From positions 1,742,501-1,806,500 of the forward strand of contig NZ_AP028127.1 of the NCBI RefSeq assembly GCF_037076425.1: 64,000 nucleotides of DNA, read 5' to 3'. Positions 14,029 to 21,782 of the stretch are shown here, in pieces. Made by a program: the position numbers and the translations under genes. Under the pieces are notes generated by a model. That model had not been told where the DNA came from. It made no database searches and saw only the letters and a list, made by a program, of their open reading frames with translations. How positions within the stretch are numbered: the first letter of the stretch is position 1; each line of letters begins with the position of its first letter. The stretch is from Turicibacter faecis (GTDB taxonomy: Bacteria > Bacillota_I > Bacilli_A > MOL361 > Turicibacteraceae).

Positions 14029-14898
14029 TTACAAATAAAATCGCTTAGGAATGGGCGTTTGAAACGTTTGAAGCTCCTTTGTAATAGGGTGGATAAATCC
14101 AACAAAGTAACTATGTAATAAATGTCCCTCACTTAAAACAATCGCTTGTTCATCATACAGTGTATCTCCCACTAAGGGGTGACCTAAATGTGACAGATGA
14201 ACACGAATTTGATGCGTTCGTCCCGTCTCGAGCGTACATTCGACGAGCGTGTTTTCCGAAAATTTTTCAAGGACACGATAATGCGTCACAGCGTCATCTC
14301 CGTCTAAAACGACTCCACGCTTTACATTTCCTTCCTGTAACCTTGCAATAGGAGCGTTAATCGTTCCAGTTCCAGATAAATCGCCCTTAACTAACGTATA
14401 GTATTTGCGTTTCATATGTTTAATCTCATCGGTCATTAAATGATGAATGTGGCGATATTTTGCAACGACTAATAATCCCGATGTATCCTTATCTAATCGA
14501 TTCACAAAGTGAAGGGTCGAATCAAGTCCCCGCCTATTATAATAATGGACTAAAGCATTCGCTAATGTTTGATGAGGATACCTAATAGAAGGAATGGTCG
14601 GCAATCCCGCGGGTTTATTAATAACGAGCAAATAATCATCCTCGTATAGAATATCTAATGGATACTCATATGGTGTTAATCCTTCACTTCTTGATTCCTT
14701 TGGAAAGATAACAGTTAGCTGATCATTTAAACTTAACTGATAGCGGACGTTTTGTACACTCCCATTAACGAGGAGTTGCCCACCTCGATGTTTAGTCGCT
14801 ACAATCGCCTTTTTAGAAATTCGCTGTTGTTTTAAATATTGAAGCAATGACATTCCCGCTGCTTCCTCATTAATATGAAAAGTTAAAATTAGACTCAT
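14029..14898 (-). CDS. RluA-family 23S/tRNA pseudouridine synthase (YjbO-like)
   Basis: An N-terminal S4-like part (about 1-75, with ISKKAIVATKHRGGQLLVNGSV) is followed by the catalytic domain with INKPAGLPTIPS, FVNRLDKDTSGLLVVAK (the catalytic Asp is in RLDKDTSG), and LETGRTHQIRVHLSHLGHPLVGDTLY. It isomerises uridine to pseudouridine in structured RNA; the exact sites cannot be told from sequence. It follows nadK by 10 bases, reproducing the relQ-nadK-rluD gene order of B. subtilis (yjbM-yjbN-yjbO). GGAG precedes the start. Confidence 0.92.
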   Translation of the reverse strand: MSLILTFHINEEAAGMSLLQYLKQQRISKKAIVATKHRGGQLLVNGSVQNVRYQLSLNDQLTVIFPKESRSEGLTPYEYPLDILYEDDYLLVINKPAGLPTIPSIRYPHQTLANALVHYYNRRGLDSTLHFVNRLDKDTSGLLVVAKYRHIHHLMTDEIKHMKRKYYTLVKGDLSGTGTINAPIARLQEGNVKRGVVLDGDDAVTHYRVLEKFSENTLVECTLETGRTHQIRVHLSHLGHPLVGDTLYDEQAIVLSEGHLLHSYFVGFIHPITKELQTFQTPIPKRFYL

Positions 14899-14908
14899 CG
14901 TTATACTC

Positions 14909-15706
14909 CTATAAAAAATGCTGCTTTACTCGATTCCAAAATAATCCCTCTCGTCGTTTAAGGAAGGTGACGGAACGAGAAGATAAGGTGACCCGAATTT
15001 TCTGGATATTTTTATATGATTCATACAAATGATCCCGAGTAATCGTTACATCCTGAAAATTTTCCGATTGTAGAGTAACCGTCTGCTCTTCTGGAATAAT
15101 TAATGGAGACCCGATCGTTCTAAACACATTATTATTAATCGAGGCAATCTCAGTCATCTGAAACGCTCGTAGTGTTGGGTAAACGAGTGCCCCACCTAAT
15201 GATTTATTATAGGCCGTGCTTCCGGTTGGCGTCGAGAGACAAACGCCTGTTCCACGAAAAGACTCAAAAAACAAGTCATCAATCGTCACGTTTAAATGTT
15301 GCGTTCGAGAAGCATTTAAAAGCGTCATCTCATTAAAAGCATATAATTGATGACAAACTTCATGATTCGTTCGTTCACACTCACATAACACGATTGACAA
15401 GAGCGGATATTGACAAACACTCTGATGATCCTCTTGTAAAAAGTCAACCAATTCATCTAACTCACCCGGTAACCAATCCGTATAGTATCCTAAATGTCCC
15501 GTATGAATACCAATAAACTTAATCTGCTCAATTTGATTCATATAATAATGAACGGCATGCAATACCGTTCCATCGCCACCAATCGTTAAAACAATATCTG
15601 GATTTCCATGATCTATTTGAATGTTCCTCTCCAATAACTTTTCAATGAGCTGTTGTTTAACTTGCTCTGAAACTTCACGATCATTCGCGTAGATTGCTAC
15701 TTTCAT
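14909..15706 (-). CDS. nadK: NAD kinase
   Basis: The enzyme phosphorylates NAD to NADP. Key motifs are the DIVLTIGGDGTVLHAVHYY glycine-rich loop, HTGHLGYYTDW, YAFNEMTLLNA (the NE motif) and GTGVCLSTPTGSTAYNKSLGGALV. The start is the ATG at MKVAIYAND (265 residues), since AGGGAG lies eight bases before it; this leaves one base between it and the relQ stop codon, so translational coupling is likely. Confidence 0.95.
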   Translation of the reverse strand: MKVAIYANDREVSEQVKQQLIEKLLERNIQIDHGNPDIVLTIGGDGTVLHAVHYYMNQIEQIKFIGIHTGHLGYYTDWLPGELDELVDFLQEDHQSVCQYPLLSIVLCECERTNHEVCHQLYAFNEMTLLNASRTQHLNVTIDDLFFESFRGTGVCLSTPTGSTAYNKSLGGALVYPTLRAFQMTEIASINNNVFRTIGSPLIIPEEQTVTLQSENFQDVTITRDHLYESYKNIQKIRVTLSSRSVTFLKRREGLFWNRVKQHFL

Positions 15707-15707
15707 A

Positions 15708-16400
15708 TTAATCTCCCTTATGTTTCTTAATGAGGTAATCTTCATTTAAAGTGACCAAATTTGTGGCTGGTTCAATCACTCGATATTCATCGGACTGTCG
15801 TTTTTCAAATGTTTTTTGTGCTTCCGCTATTTCATCTCGAATTTCTGACATTTGTCCATCTAACCATGCGGCAGCTTCAGCTGCTTGTTTTAGTCGATCT
15901 TTAATCCCTTTAGGAATTTGACCCTCATATTTATAATTTAAAGAGTGTTCAATACTTGCCCAAAAATTCATCGCAAGCGTCCTAATTTGAAACTCAACCA
16001 TGACCTTTTTCATCCCATCAATCGTTTCTAAATGATAGTAGGCATGAATATGGTACGAGCGATATCCACTTTCCCGTTGCATCGAAATATAGTCGCGTGT
16101 TTCAACAATTTCTAAATCTTGACGCTTTTTAAGTAACTCCACCACCATATAAATATCTTCAACAAATTGACAATTAATTCGAATCCCAGCGATATCATAT
16201 ACACGACCAATTTCATGAATCGTAAGCCCCATTCGATCTAATTTATCTAAAATACTCGCAATCGTTTTAATACGGCCATCAACAAATTCAATAGGCGAAT
16301 GAAGCCCCTTCGTTTTATATTGCTGGCGAATTCCCCTTAAATTGATTTTCAACTCCTGCAAGGCTAATTCATACGGCTCAAAAAAACTTAACCAATCCAT
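15708..16400 (-). CDS. relQ: Small alarmone synthetase RelQ (GTP pyrophosphokinase)
   Basis: The 230-residue protein carries only the synthetase domain of the RelA/SpoT family: DIAGIRINCQFVEDIY, RESGYRSYHIHAYYHL and VMVEFQIRTLAMNFWASIEHSLNYKYEG. There is no hydrolase or regulatory domain. Such enzymes make (p)ppGpp in response to cell-wall or other stress and form tetramers. A C-terminal helical tail (about 170-230) is as expected. GAGGTGA five bases before the ATG at MDWLSFF decides the start. It leads the relQ-nadK-rluA operon and is divergent from a CYTH gene. Confidence 0.95.
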   Translation of the reverse strand: MDWLSFFEPYELALQELKINLRGIRQQYKTKGLHSPIEFVDGRIKTIASILDKLDRMGLTIHEIGRVYDIAGIRINCQFVEDIYMVVELLKKRQDLEIVETRDYISMQRESGYRSYHIHAYYHLETIDGMKKVMVEFQIRTLAMNFWASIEHSLNYKYEGQIPKGIKDRLKQAAEAAAWLDGQMSEIRDEIAEAQKTFEKRQSDEYRVIEPATNLVTLNEDYLIKKHKGD

Positions 16401-16527
16401 TAAATTCACCTCTACTTTTGACGTTAATTTCGTTTTCATTATGTCTCACTTTATTTTTAAAATATATTAAACACTCATTGATTATATCATGTCTTTGAGT
16501 CATAATTAAATAGAGGTGAGATGCTTT

Positions 16528-17100
16528 ATGGCGACAAATCTAGAAATTGAATTTAAAAATATGCTAACGGAAACGGAATATGACCGATTAATTCAAACGT
16601 TCAATATCCAAGAAGAGCAAATTTGGTTACAAAAAAATGTCTATTTCGATACAAAGTCCCACGATCTTAAACAAAAAGGAGCAGCCCTTAGAATTCGTGT
16701 CAAAAACAATACTTATGAGCTGACATTAAAAACAAAGCAAGACGTAGGTCTTCTCGAAACCAATCAAATCATTTCCAAATCTGAGTACAAGGCATTCAAA
16801 TATGACCATGTCTTAGTCAAAGGGCCTGTTTTAGATAGTCTACTCACACTAGGCATTGATGTGGACCACCTACAAGTTATCACAGATCTTGCAACTAAAC
16901 GCGCAGAAATTCCTTATCACAATGGAACCCTTGTCCTCGATAAAAGTTTTTACGGTGAAATCATTGACTTTGAAGTCGAATATGAAGTCTCAAACTTTGA
17001 AGAAGGACAAAAACAATTTGAAACATTTTTAGAAGAGTATCACATTGAACGTCGTCCCGCTCAAAATAAAATCAAACGGGCGATGGAGGCCATGAAATAA
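16528..17100 (+). CDS. yjbK: CYTH domain protein (YjbK-like)
   Basis: The 190-residue protein has the defining EIEFK (ExExK) motif near the N-terminus, then the alternating charged strands of the triphosphate tunnel fold (RIRVKNNTYELTLKTKQ, LDKSFYGEIIDFEVEYEV). CYTH proteins bind and often hydrolyse inorganic triphosphate or nucleotide triphosphates with divalent metal. Its position beside relQ matches the B. subtilis yjbK-yjbM neighbourhood and suggests a link to (p)ppGpp or polyphosphate metabolism. GAGGTGA lies eight bases before the chosen ATG. Confidence 0.9.
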   Translation: MATNLEIEFKNMLTETEYDRLIQTFNIQEEQIWLQKNVYFDTKSHDLKQKGAALRIRVKNNTYELTLKTKQDVGLLETNQIISKSEYKAFKYDHVLVKGPVLDSLLTLGIDVDHLQVITDLATKRAEIPYHNGTLVLDKSFYGEIIDFEVEYEVSNFEEGQKQFETFLEEYHIERRPAQNKIKRAMEAMK

Positions 17101-17111
17101 ACCGTGAACTG

Positions 17112-17229
17112 AGCTTAAACAAGCTAGTTTTTTTCTATCCGCCCTCGAAATGGGTAACCTCAAGACCCTACCGAGTCAATTATATATCTAACTATAAAAC
17201 TAGCTTAAACAAGCTAGTTTTTTTCTATC
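17112..17229 (+). repeat. Two direct copies of a 28-base terminator module
   Basis: A 28-base unit, hairpin AGCTTAAACAAGCT plus AGTTTTTTTCTATC, occurs at 17112-17139 and again at 17202-17229. In the second copy AAACTAGCTT pairs perfectly with AAGCTAGTTT; in the first copy one base disturbs the outer stem. Both have a T run on the plus strand downstream of the CYTH gene, so they act as tandem terminators. The 62 bases between them show no gene. Confidence 0.9.
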
Positions 17230-17294
17230 AACTTTCTAACTTTAAATCCTATATTCTGTAAGGATTTAATCACGCATCCAACTAGAAAACTCAT

Positions 17295-18428
17295 TTAAGA
17301 AAAGTCTTTTATTTGTTTCCAGCGCTCCCCTAACTGAGCATCCTCAATTAAATAAGGATCTAATTGTGCGTATAGACGTGGCCGTTTAACATATTCAAAA
17401 TACCCAAATTGAGACTTAAGCATTCCAAAGTGAACTAATAGGTCTAAATAACATTTAAGTCCAACAAGACAATGAGGGCCCTCCTTCAGTCGATAAAGTC
17501 CTTTTAATTTTTTTTGAATGTCAGATAAAGTAAAAACATCTTGCTCCTTATACTCACTCATGATGCATAAAACAACATAGGCCTGCCAAATAAATAATGG
17601 TTTTGTATAAACGGCACCCTCAATGGGCCACCCAATCACCGAAGGTAATAAAGATAGATTAATTAAAAATGGAGCACACAACCTTAAAAGGGCATACTCT
17701 TTTCGTTGATAAGCGGCAAACTTATGACAGCGGAAATCTTTTTTAAGGGCTAACCAATCCTCTAACCGGCGATTAACACGTAACTGATCATCTTCTACCA
17801 CCTGTTGAATCGTTAATTGATCTAATGAAAAAGTCTTCCTTATCGCCTCAATTTCTCGTTGGTTCATCCAAACAATCTGGTTAAAAATCGTAACCTTTCG
17901 TTCCCGCCAATTTAAATGAATTAAGGGCTGCTCTTTTTGTAACCTCATCACTCGGTTAACGCGATAAGTCGTTTTTAATCGGTTCAACTCACCAATAAAA
18001 ATCCAAATCACTTCAACCCGCGCATGGCGATAATCGGATATTCGTTGTTGGAAGACCTCAGGGGACATCATACTCTTTTGAATTTCAAACGCATAAGCCT
18101 TTCCATCCCACTCGAAATAAAGATCGGCAATTCGATTTCCCGATGGAAGACGATATTCCACTTCCACTTTTTTCGCCCCACAATCAATTAACCATTCCCT
18201 AAGAATTTCCTTACTCATCAAGTGGGCTTCACTTTCAGACTCGTGTTCACCGAAACGGCATGGCGTCTGATGAGCGAAATGCGCACGGCGCTTCGATCCT
18301 TGTCTTAAAATGACAGGAGCCCCACAGTAGGGACAAGAAAAATGCTTAGTCAACTTTAAATGTGGGAGTTGTTGGGATGAAATTTTTGTTAAATCAATTA
18401 ACACATCATTTTGCCTTGCTCGTAACAT
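17295..18428 (-). CDS. coiA: Competence protein CoiA
   Basis: The N-terminal zinc-ribbon-like part (FSCPYCGAPVILRQGSKRRAHFAH) is followed by a restriction-endonuclease-like core with ESEAHLMSKEILREWL, ADLYFEW and AFEIQKS, which fits the Asp/Glu-x-Lys catalytic pattern. The C-terminal 200 residues are variable. CoiA processes branched DNA during recombination of incoming DNA in competent cells. The length of 377 residues is usual. In B. subtilis coiA lies between mecA and the yjbK-relQ region; here the spx and relQ flanks are kept. Confidence 0.92.
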   Translation of the reverse strand: MLRARQNDVLIDLTKISSQQLPHLKLTKHFSCPYCGAPVILRQGSKRRAHFAHQTPCRFGEHESESEAHLMSKEILREWLIDCGAKKVEVEYRLPSGNRIADLYFEWDGKAYAFEIQKSMMSPEVFQQRISDYRHARVEVIWIFIGELNRLKTTYRVNRVMRLQKEQPLIHLNWRERKVTIFNQIVWMNQREIEAIRKTFSLDQLTIQQVVEDDQLRVNRRLEDWLALKKDFRCHKFAAYQRKEYALLRLCAPFLINLSLLPSVIGWPIEGAVYTKPLFIWQAYVVLCIMSEYKEQDVFTLSDIQKKLKGLYRLKEGPHCLVGLKCYLDLLVHFGMLKSQFGYFEYVKRPRLYAQLDPYLIEDAQLGERWKQIKDFS

Positions 18429-18476: not shown

Positions 18477-19289
18477 TTATAAAAGACCTTCTTGTTGCAA
18501 AAGTTCCGTTAATTGTTGCACCATCAAATCGATAACGCTAAGCAACTGCTTATCATAACGTGCGGCGTGAACAAATAATAATTCAATATGCTCCTTCATT
18601 AACTTTGGTAAGACTCGACATATTTCTTCTGTTATCTGGATAATCCGGTTTTCAGTCGGATAATATTGACGATTAAGAGCAAAAATGATTTCTAAATAGC
18701 ATTTTAAATAACCATTTAATAAATTTGAAAGATGAATACGATCACGATGCTCTAAAGCTCGCTCAAATCGAATATAGTAAGATTTATGACTTTGCTTTAA
18801 CAGCGGGTACTGAATGCTCACAATTCGTTGTCTCATTTGGTCTGAATAATGAGACGTATATTCCTCTTTCAACTTAGCCAACTGTTGATCACGGTCAAAT
18901 AATATATTCGAATTATGTACAAAATAGGCAATCTGCGTCGACGTATACCGAGTAATCATGGTTTCATCAATCGCATCCATGAGTTTTTTTTCGACGGTGC
19001 TCATCTCAAGATAACAAAGATCTAGTTCAACAGCGAAATCTCGTAACGAACAATGATCAATGTTTACTTCCCCCGGACAATCCAATTCCATAGACTCCGA
19101 AAATTTCACAAGAATTTGACGACGTTTCTCTTTCGCGATGGGTTGAGTAAAATAAATAACAATATTGATATCTGATAATTCATCTTGATAATTAGAAAAC
19201 TTAGAACCTGACATAGTAATCCCTGTCACCTCTTCAAGCGTTTTGAATTCGGCTATTAATCGGTGTAAAATTTCGTTCACATTAATCAT
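18477..19289 (-). CDS. Nucleotidyltransferase-fold protein with degenerate metal motif
   Basis: The start of the 270-residue protein has the Pol-beta-type nucleotidyltransferase pattern ITMSGSKFSNYQDELSDINIVIYF, where GS is followed by DIN in place of the usual DxD. A helical C-terminal domain (about 95-270) follows, as in DUF4037-type proteins. Loss of the second aspartate raises doubt about catalysis unless another acidic residue (Asp36 or Asp57 area) compensates. I choose the ATG preceded by GGGAGGGG. It lies between coiA and spx, the place mecA holds in Bacillus, but it shows no MecA similarity. Confidence 0.7.
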   Translation of the reverse strand: MINVNEILHRLIAEFKTLEEVTGITMSGSKFSNYQDELSDINIVIYFTQPIAKEKRRQILVKFSESMELDCPGEVNIDHCSLRDFAVELDLCYLEMSTVEKKLMDAIDETMITRYTSTQIAYFVHNSNILFDRDQQLAKLKEEYTSHYSDQMRQRIVSIQYPLLKQSHKSYYIRFERALEHRDRIHLSNLLNGYLKCYLEIIFALNRQYYPTENRIIQITEEICRVLPKLMKEHIELLFVHAARYDKQLLSVIDLMVQQLTELLQQEGLL

Positions 19290-19327
19290 TTTGCACGCCC
19301 CTCCCACGACATCTATTTTATGACATA

Positions 19328-19425: not shown

Positions 19426-19469
19426 AAAAAAACTCCGAGCATTAGCTATTGAATCTAATACCCGGAGTT
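19426..19469 (-). terminator. Rho-independent terminator of spx
   Basis: On the minus strand AACTCCG and CGGAGTT form the stem, followed by TTTTTAGTTT. The loop is long (about 23 bases). Confidence 0.7.
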
Positions 19470-19486: not shown

Positions 19487-19948
19487 TTATCTCATTGATG
19501 CCTTTTCAATAAAATTATCTTTTAGCGCACGCTCTAATGCACCAACATATGAACAATTACAATTATCACAATTATTACAATAAATCACATTTCTTAATTC
19601 GCGCGGTAAAAAGCATCGAATTTCTTCATCATTATACCCCACTTGTAAGCGGTGCTTATCAACAATAATAGGACGGCGTAAAACACTCGGATTCTCAACA
19701 ATAAAATCGAGTAATTCATTGATCGTCATGTCGTCCGCATTCAAATTATTTTCCTTAAACGCCTTTGAACGTGTAGAAATAATATCTTCAAAACCATTTT
19801 CAGTTTTTTCTAAAATTTGTTTAATATTTTCACGTGTAATTTTTGTCACAAATAAATTTTTTTCCGTATATTTAATCCCGTATTCATCTAACCATTTCTT
19901 TGCCTTACGACACGATGAACAACTGGGAGATGTATAAATTTCAACCAT
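19487..19948 (-). CDS. spx: Spx-family regulator with cysteine-rich C-terminal tail
   Basis: Spx binds the RNA polymerase alpha subunit and redirects transcription under thiol stress. The redox switch Cys10-Ser-Ser-Cys13, Gly52 and the RRPI motif with Arg92 are all at the positions known from B. subtilis Spx. The length is 153 rather than about 131 residues: after FLPRELRN the usual end is replaced by IYCNNCDNCNCSYVGALERALKD and a short tail, giving four cysteines (124, 127, 130, 132) in a CX2CX2CXC pattern. In Bacillus the C-terminus is read by YjbH/ClpXP, so turnover may differ here. The gene has its own terminator. Confidence 0.9.
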   Translation of the reverse strand: MVEIYTSPSCSSCRKAKKWLDEYGIKYTEKNLFVTKITRENIKQILEKTENGFEDIISTRSKAFKENNLNADDMTINELLDFIVENPSVLRRPIIVDKHRLQVGYNDEEIRCFLPRELRNVIYCNNCDNCNCSYVGALERALKDNFIEKASMR

Positions 19949-20138: not shown

Positions 20139-21593
20139 TTATTCACCTAATAAGTTTTTTGCCTGACACGGAACTTCCTGCTCTAACTTCCCTTTCATCA
20201 CACGGCGCATAAACCAGCTAAATAAAATAATAGCTGCTAAAATTCCTACCCCATTTGAGAAAGTTCCACTTAAGCGTAACCCCTCTTTTGCCTGTAGAAT
20301 GTATGATGTACAAATGAAAGTCATAAATGTGGCTGGAATCAAGGTAATCCAATAATTACGTTTATTTTTCAATAAGTAAACGGTTGATGTCCATAAACAA
20401 ATCGTCGCTAATGTTTGATTTGACCACGCAAAATAGCGCCAAATAATATTAAAATCAAATTGCGTTAAAATAATACAAATAACAAATAACGGAATGGCGA
20501 TATAAAAACGTTTAGCCACATGATCTTGCTTAATAGAAAAGGCATCTGCAATCGTTAAACGTGCACTTCTAAATGCCGTATCTCCCGAAGTAATCGGACA
20601 TGCAACAACTCCAAGAAGCGCCAATACCGCCCCTACTTTTCCTAACAATCCTGTTGAAATAATGTTAACGACACCAGACTGTCCACCCGATTCAACCAAT
20701 GCTTGATTTAAATGAGCTGTATCTCCGAAGAAAGACAATGAAACGGCACACCAGACTAAAGCCACAATTCCCTCGACAACCATGGCACCATAAAATACCT
20801 TTTTACTCTCTCGTTCATTCGAAACACAACGTGCCATCATCGGAGATTGTGTCGCATGAAAACCACTTAAAGCTCCGCAAGCAATCGTCACAAATAAAAA
20901 TGGGAAGACAGATAACTTTTCAGGATGTAAATTTTCAAGTGTCATTTCAACCATTGGGCGTGTTCCATTAAAGTGATTAATAAACATAGCCCCACATAAA
21001 CCAATCGCCATTAATAATAAAGCTGCACCAAACAATGGATAAATCTTACCGACAATTTTATCAACCGGTAAAATCGTAGCTAAAATATAATATAAGATAA
21101 TAATAACTGTCCAAAAGACTAATCCTTGACCCGTCATAGAAGCTAATAACCCTGCTGGTGAACTCACAAAAACAGTTCCAACTAAAATTAATAAAATGAC
21201 TGAGAACACGCGCATAATCATTTTCATGTGGTCACCTAAATAAATTCCAACTAATTCTGAAACAGACATTCCATCATGTTTCATTGAGATAACGCCACTT
21301 AAATAATCATGAACCGCACCCGCGAAAATCGTCCCAAACGTAATCCATAAAAAGGCTACCGGCCCAAATAACGCTCCAGAAATGGCTCCAAAGATTGGAC
21401 CCGTTCCCGCAATATTTAAAAATTGAATTAAGAAAACTTTCCACCACGGCATCGGAACATAATCGACATCATCTTGTAATTTAACAGCTGGTGTTTCCTT
21501 ATCCGGATTCACGCCCACCATTCGATCCACATACGTTCCATAAATAAAATACCCACCAATTAAAATACTTAAACAAACTAAAAATGTAACCAC
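20139..21593 (-). CDS. cstA: CstA-family peptide/pyruvate-type transporter
   Basis: The 484-residue protein is almost entirely hydrophobic, with about 14 predicted helices and the CstA signatures FLNIAGTGPIFGAISGALFGPVAFLWITFGTIFAGAVHDYLSG and GALSGFHATQSPMMARC. Family members import peptides or pyruvate during nutrient limitation. It is the short form without the C-terminal extension. I place the start at a GTG with AAGGAG seven bases upstream; the longer frame opens at an ATG only nine bases after a TATAAT box, where transcription should begin. A palindrome at 21638-21655 lies in the leader. Confidence 0.9.
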   Translation of the reverse strand: MVTFLVCLSILIGGYFIYGTYVDRMVGVNPDKETPAVKLQDDVDYVPMPWWKVFLIQFLNIAGTGPIFGAISGALFGPVAFLWITFGTIFAGAVHDYLSGVISMKHDGMSVSELVGIYLGDHMKMIMRVFSVILLILVGTVFVSSPAGLLASMTGQGLVFWTVIIILYYILATILPVDKIVGKIYPLFGAALLLMAIGLCGAMFINHFNGTRPMVEMTLENLHPEKLSVFPFLFVTIACGALSGFHATQSPMMARCVSNERESKKVFYGAMVVEGIVALVWCAVSLSFFGDTAHLNQALVESGGQSGVVNIISTGLLGKVGAVLALLGVVACPITSGDTAFRSARLTIADAFSIKQDHVAKRFYIAIPLFVICIILTQFDFNIIWRYFAWSNQTLATICLWTSTVYLLKNKRNYWITLIPATFMTFICTSYILQAKEGLRLSGTFSNGVGILAAIILFSWFMRRVMKGKLEQEVPCQAKNLLGE

Positions 21594-21637
21594 ACGTATA
21601 CTCCTTCCGCATCTCTCTCCTATAATAAAACAACTTG

Positions 21638-21655
21638 TGAAAAAATTACTTTTCA
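21638..21655. promoter_or_regulatory. Palindrome at the cstA promoter, candidate operator
   Basis: TGAAAA and TTTTCA flank six bases. The site lies directly after a TATAAT box (21663-21668, minus strand) whose -35 region is weak, so a bound regulator would sit at the transcription start. The regulator is not identified. Confidence 0.4.
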
Positions 21656-21782
21656 TGAAATCATTATACTATGAAATTAAAAAAATAAAAGTCTTTTTGA
21701 CATCTTTTTAAATTTTTTTTCACAAATGTAAGAAAAAAGATGATTGATTTTCTAAAATTGAAAATCGATCATCCTCTTTTAC

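Follow-up and report, generated by a model that had tools for sequence, protein, structure and literature searches.

The analysed window, a stretch of 64,000 nucleotides from the 2.43 Mb single-contig genome of Turicibacter faecis, contains a gene block in which the Bacillus-type order is kept. According to the neighbourhood comparison, it comprises genes for a yjbO-like RluA-family pseudouridine synthase (14029–14898, minus strand), a yjbN-like NAD kinase (14909–15745, minus strand), a yjbM-like GTP diphosphokinase (15708–16439, minus strand) and a yjbK-like CYTH protein (16516–17100, plus strand), which adjoins coiA (17295–18428, minus strand). These are followed by a gene for a DUF4037 protein (18477–19307, minus strand) and by spx (19487–19948, minus strand). 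The presence of coiA, yjbK, yjbM, yjbN and yjbO around spx is common to Turicibacter, Mesobacillus and others. In Mesobacillus, a yjbH match sits between coiA and yjbK, whereas the two genes are adjacent in Turicibacter (16516–18428) and the corresponding slot is empty; YjbH has therefore been lost from this conserved block or was never inserted. The interval between coiA and spx, occupied in Turicibacter by the DUF4037 gene, is the place of mecA in Bacillus. As originally noted, mecA is not found there, nor was it detected anywhere in the genome of the window; MecA is absent from all 11 genomes searched (the window's genome and relatives) and present in both Bacillus-type controls. A DUF4037 gene between coiA and spx also occurs elsewhere (G003, L145), but G006 (L144), a relative from the same family, has none at this place. 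Directly upstream of spx and beside an oligopeptide transporter operon lies a gene for a CstA-family carbon starvation transporter of 505 amino acids (20139–21656). On the minus strand, the probable spx terminator (19431–19469) consists of the inverted repeat AACTCCG...CGGAGTT and a subsequent T run; it was read from the sequence, its loop being too long for the hairpin scan.

The spx reading frame extends from an ATG at 19948 to a TAA at 19487 and encodes a genuine Spx of 153 amino acids. The NCBIfam Spx model NF002459 matches it with 173 bits (cut-off 123), the match being confined to residues 1–121, and its closest solved structures are all Spx proteins. The core predicted by AlphaFold2 (pLDDT >90) adopts the ArsC-like fold found in Spx crystal structures and superposes onto B. 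subtilis Spx (pdb-code: 3gfk) with a TM-score of 0.95 (by target) and 55% identity over 116 columns. The genome holds a single Spx, as the second match is a distant ArsC-like protein of 21% identity; the Spx of Turicibacter sp. UBA7094 is 97% identical. The functional residues named in the original prediction, the redox pair Cys10-x2-Cys13 (codons 19910–19921, minus strand), Gly52 and Arg92, are all present; in an alignment of 57 Spx sequences Gly52 and Arg92 are invariant and Cys10 and Cys13 are conserved to more than 90%. The protein thus shares the ArsC-like fold, these four residues and about 55% identity with B. subtilis Spx (YjbD, NF002459). It belongs to the same family of proteins binding the α-CTD of RNA polymerase, and its fold and conserved residues suggest that it likewise binds the α-CTD and activates transcription.

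The two proteins differ in what follows the core. In B. subtilis, residue 131 is the last of Spx, cysteines are lacking from the tail, and YjbH delivers the protein to ClpXP, whereas Turicibacter Spx is about 22 residues longer, contains four clustered tail cysteines and a variable end, and occurs without yjbH. The four cysteines were confirmed at the predicted positions 124, 127, 130 and 132. They constitute a loop, C124-x2-C127-x2-C130-x-C132 (19553–19579, minus strand), which aligns with a C-x(2-4)-C-x5-C pattern of relatives; C124, C127 and C132 form a C-x2-C-x4-C motif, to which Cys130 is an extra. A fifth C-terminal cysteine, overlooked in the original prediction, is Cys112 within IRCFLPR (codon 19613–19615, minus strand), which the alignments reveal as specific to Turicibacter. 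At the cysteine frequency of the window (1.04%), at least four cysteines in some nine-residue segment of Spx are expected by chance with a probability of about 2e-4, and the maximum among the 44 long reading frames listed for the window is three cysteines in nine. Stronger evidence for the reality of the tail cysteines is their conservation. In the five distinct sequences obtained from six Turicibacter records, two of which are identical, Cys112, Cys124, Cys127, Cys130 and Cys132 are all invariant, although TGT/TGC exchanges are seen at each of the five codons and 8 of the 29 non-cysteine tail sites vary. This invariance despite synonymous codon change and varying neighbours shows that the five cysteines are under purifying selection. 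The last residues differ between Turicibacter species (KASMR, KASTN, NTSKRN, RTNKRG, QTEVK), so that the protein does not end in a conserved degron like that of B. subtilis Spx.

Cysteine-bearing tails are widespread in the GTDB phylum of the window, where at least two tail cysteines were found in 82 of 101 sampled Spx and in 16 of 21 families. The tail is thus not confined to one small clade but occurs phylum-wide. Spx of Bacillales and Lactobacillales end near residue 131 and lack tail cysteines. The phylum set comprises 98 distinct tails, 80 of them with two or more cysteines; among these 80, C-x5-C occurs in 69 and C-x(2-4)-C-x5-C in 52, the latter often reading C-P-x-[Y/F/G]-x-x-C, and CxxC pairs are found in 42 of the 98. 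The spacing is not rigid, as some lineages carry C-x4-C-x6-C or C-x-C-x4-C and several only two cysteines, for example C-x6-C, C-x8-C or C-x9-C. A core-only tree calculated with the tail excluded implies six or more changes of the cysteine set; as this tree is unrooted, gain and loss are indistinguishable at the base, and near relatives are over-represented in the sample. Where the set is lost while the tail helix is kept, the number of cysteines is mostly zero rather than one or two, as in the A. laidlawii group, L057/L060, L042, L044 and G006, a member of the window's own family. Gain and loss thus mostly concern the cysteines all together. Two genomes of another genus of this family (G005, G007) contain no true Spx but only a distant ArsC-like protein. 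In two Spx of family f23 (L207 of G209 and L208 of G176), Cys10 is kept but position 13 is a serine, and the set of tail cysteines is missing. A functionless, weakly constrained Asn/Cys-rich tail would fit the low predicted order and the loss in some lineages, but purifying selection on all five cysteines and their recurrence across the families make this explanation, which the comparative data disfavour, hardly credible.

The AlphaFold2 model of Turicibacter Spx suggests a helix at residues 116–122, a poorly defined cysteine loop and, with low confidence, a C-terminal helix at residues 134–152 (19493–19549, minus strand), which is also recognizable in the alignment (YxxALxRxL...). A second model, calculated for an Acholeplasma-type Spx, agrees with the first; in both, the core is ordered and the cysteine loop is of low confidence. 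In such models, a metal site might present itself as a cysteine-rich loop of this kind, flanked by two helices and unordered without a cofactor. A search of Pfam with the tail only gave no match, and a tail profile compared with the PDB sequences gave no meaningful match and indicated no homology to a known metalloprotein. The search for a fourth ligand among the Cys and His columns of the Spx core alignment yielded no column that follows the tail cysteines in its distribution.

The tail module might be a structural zinc knuckle, in which constitutively bound zinc folds a stabilizing or protein-binding C-terminal hairpin without any sensing function. Sites of three cysteines and an Asp or His can hold zinc, and both the frequent CxxC pairs and the conserved tail helix are compatible with such a role. 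However, the cysteines form a single C-x2-C-x5-C cluster rather than paired CxxC motifs, and they are easily lost while the helix is kept (A. laidlawii group, G006), which implies that the cluster is not needed for the helix. We therefore regard a purely structural zinc site as unlikely, although zinc as the bound metal is still a serious alternative.

With three or four clustered cysteines in a C-x2-C-x4/5-C arrangement, the tail has the spacing of FNR/WhiB-type sites; since the tail searches of Pfam and PDB were empty, this likeness is one of spacing. The C-x(2-4)-C-x5-C spacing of the relatives is of the kind used by E. coli FNR. In Fnr of B. subtilis and B. cereus, the cluster is held by a C-terminal extension with a C-x2-C-x4-C motif and an Asp (PMC3520743), and the spacing of C124, C127 and C132 in Turicibacter equals that of this [4Fe-4S] site (PMC3520743). 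Bacillus Fnr differs in its CRP/FNR fold, in its fourth ligand Asp141 and in its demonstrated cluster, and is not homologous to the Spx tail, so that the resemblance again lies in the spacing. Based on the FNR-like spacing and on the precedent of a C-terminal three-cysteine site in Bacillus Fnr, we tentatively favour an Fe-S centre. The variable spacing across the phylum is loose for one cluster type and counts against a metal centre, as do the low confidence of the loop in both models and the failure to find a conserved fourth ligand in the core or a homologous metalloprotein. SufB/D were found in 78 of 80 genomes, the two without it (G153, G176) lacking the cysteine set as well, and SUF is present in every cysteine-tailed genome searched; as SUF is nearly universal, its co-occurrence hardly discriminates in favour of an Fe-S cluster.

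Alternatively, the tail cysteines might tune Spx activity alongside Cys10-Cys13 without any metal, by reversible disulfides among themselves, to Cys112 or to a thiol of low molecular weight. Such a thiol-only switch would be in keeping with the disulfide by which Spx already works, with the lineages that retain just two tail cysteines and with the variable spacing. The dominant tail type, C-x(2-4)-C-x5-C, however, has three cysteines, whereas a switch based on disulfides alone would not usually have an odd number, and we consider this alternative rather doubtful, although it deserves attention. The original suggestion that the tail is a metal site or a disulfide is supported indirectly by the purifying selection, the FNR-like spacing and the mostly set-wise gain or loss. 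Among these readings, a C-terminal metal-binding redox module that acts on Spx itself, with Fe-S somewhat favoured over zinc, would be the best explanation, with about an even chance of being correct.

The accepted control of Spx is proteolysis through YjbH and ClpXP. It was originally proposed that the tail might face ClpXP or an adaptor and make the turnover of Spx dependent on metal or oxidant, in line with the binding of YjbH to the C-terminus of B. subtilis Spx (PMC7016130) and with the presence of ClpX and ClpP in the Turicibacter genome of the window. The gene content of the phylum, however, argues against this proposal. The YjbH model (PF13743) gave no match in the window's genome, with a positive B. 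subtilis control, and no strong match in 96 phylum genomes (38 + 58), in which a few weak, mostly partial matches of at most 48 bits were seen. In contrast, YjbH was matched in all 13 short-tailed Bacillales and Lactobacillales genomes with 175–268 bits. As this contrast is essentially one phylogenetic split, it cannot alone prove a substitution of YjbH by the tail, and a strict replacement was ruled out by two genomes (G052, G090) which lack both YjbH and the tail. Of the 73 searched genomes that encode a cysteine-tailed Spx, 52 lack ClpP and 21 possess it; among the genomes without such an Spx, 2 have ClpP and 15 do not. ClpX is also missing from most searched lineages of the ClpP-less cysteine-tailed kind. 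Many near-complete genomes of the phylum (G016, G018, G027, G038, G040, G049, G057, G059 and others) keep Spx while ClpX and ClpP, its classical protease, are both absent. A dependence of the tail on ClpXP was thus rejected, and judging from the gene content, degradation by YjbH/ClpXP cannot be the general role of the tail. Given also the lack of MecA and the variable extreme C-terminus in Turicibacter, turnover control as the main function appears very improbable; since Turicibacter possesses both ClpX and ClpP, the tail may have a local effect on Spx turnover there.

The cysteines are retained even in the absence of all four of YjbH, MecA, ClpX and ClpP, so that the proposed metal-binding module most likely influences the activity of Spx, i.e. 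RNA polymerase binding, and not the delivery to ClpXP. We propose the following scenario: Beyond the RNA-polymerase-binding core, the C-terminus of Spx would form a small helix/cysteine-loop/helix module, in the loop of which a single metal centre is most likely coordinated by three cysteines and a further ligand. Provided that a metal is bound, an oxidant-labile Fe-S cluster would be the first choice, with a somewhat better than even chance, and zinc the second. If the centre were gained, lost or oxidized, the tail might be reshaped and the engagement of Spx with RNA polymerase or its survival thereby changed. The centre would thus serve as a second sensor beside Cys10/Cys13, and the stress input, which in Bacillus comes in trans from YjbH, could be provided in cis by the tail. 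Metal binding and the identity of the metal are inferred here, as are the response to redox conditions and the consequences for Spx activity. A cysteine metal site in the Spx pathway has a counterpart in the N-terminal zinc site of B. subtilis ClpX, which is held to be inactivated by oxidation (PMC5506225); this site resides, however, on ClpX and not on Spx and has another cysteine arrangement.

Spx is the central thiol-stress regulator of low-GC Gram-positive bacteria. A search of the open literature, with subscription papers outside its scope, revealed no description of an Spx with such a cysteine-rich tail, and the cysteine-tailed Spx is thus a variant of a known regulator family that is seemingly undescribed in the searchable literature. 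The original observation of the tail was right and understated its extent; the metal or redox hypothesis attached to it is plausible, that of Spx stability mostly unsupported. Because the tail occurs phylum-wide while most relatives lack the Bacillus adaptor and protease, it has the appearance of a metal or redox sensor built into Spx itself. In its most far-reaching form, which we put forward as a tentative possibility, a phylum-wide Spx branch with its own C-terminal Fe-S sensor would combine thiol switch and cluster in a dual sensor and control transcription without YjbH and MecA and mostly without ClpXP. A phylum with Spx and conserved tail cysteines, no recognizable YjbH and mostly no ClpP makes Spx switching outside Bacillus directly testable, and the tailed Spx may represent a transcription factor by which abundant gut bacteria, as well as mollicute relatives, sense metal.
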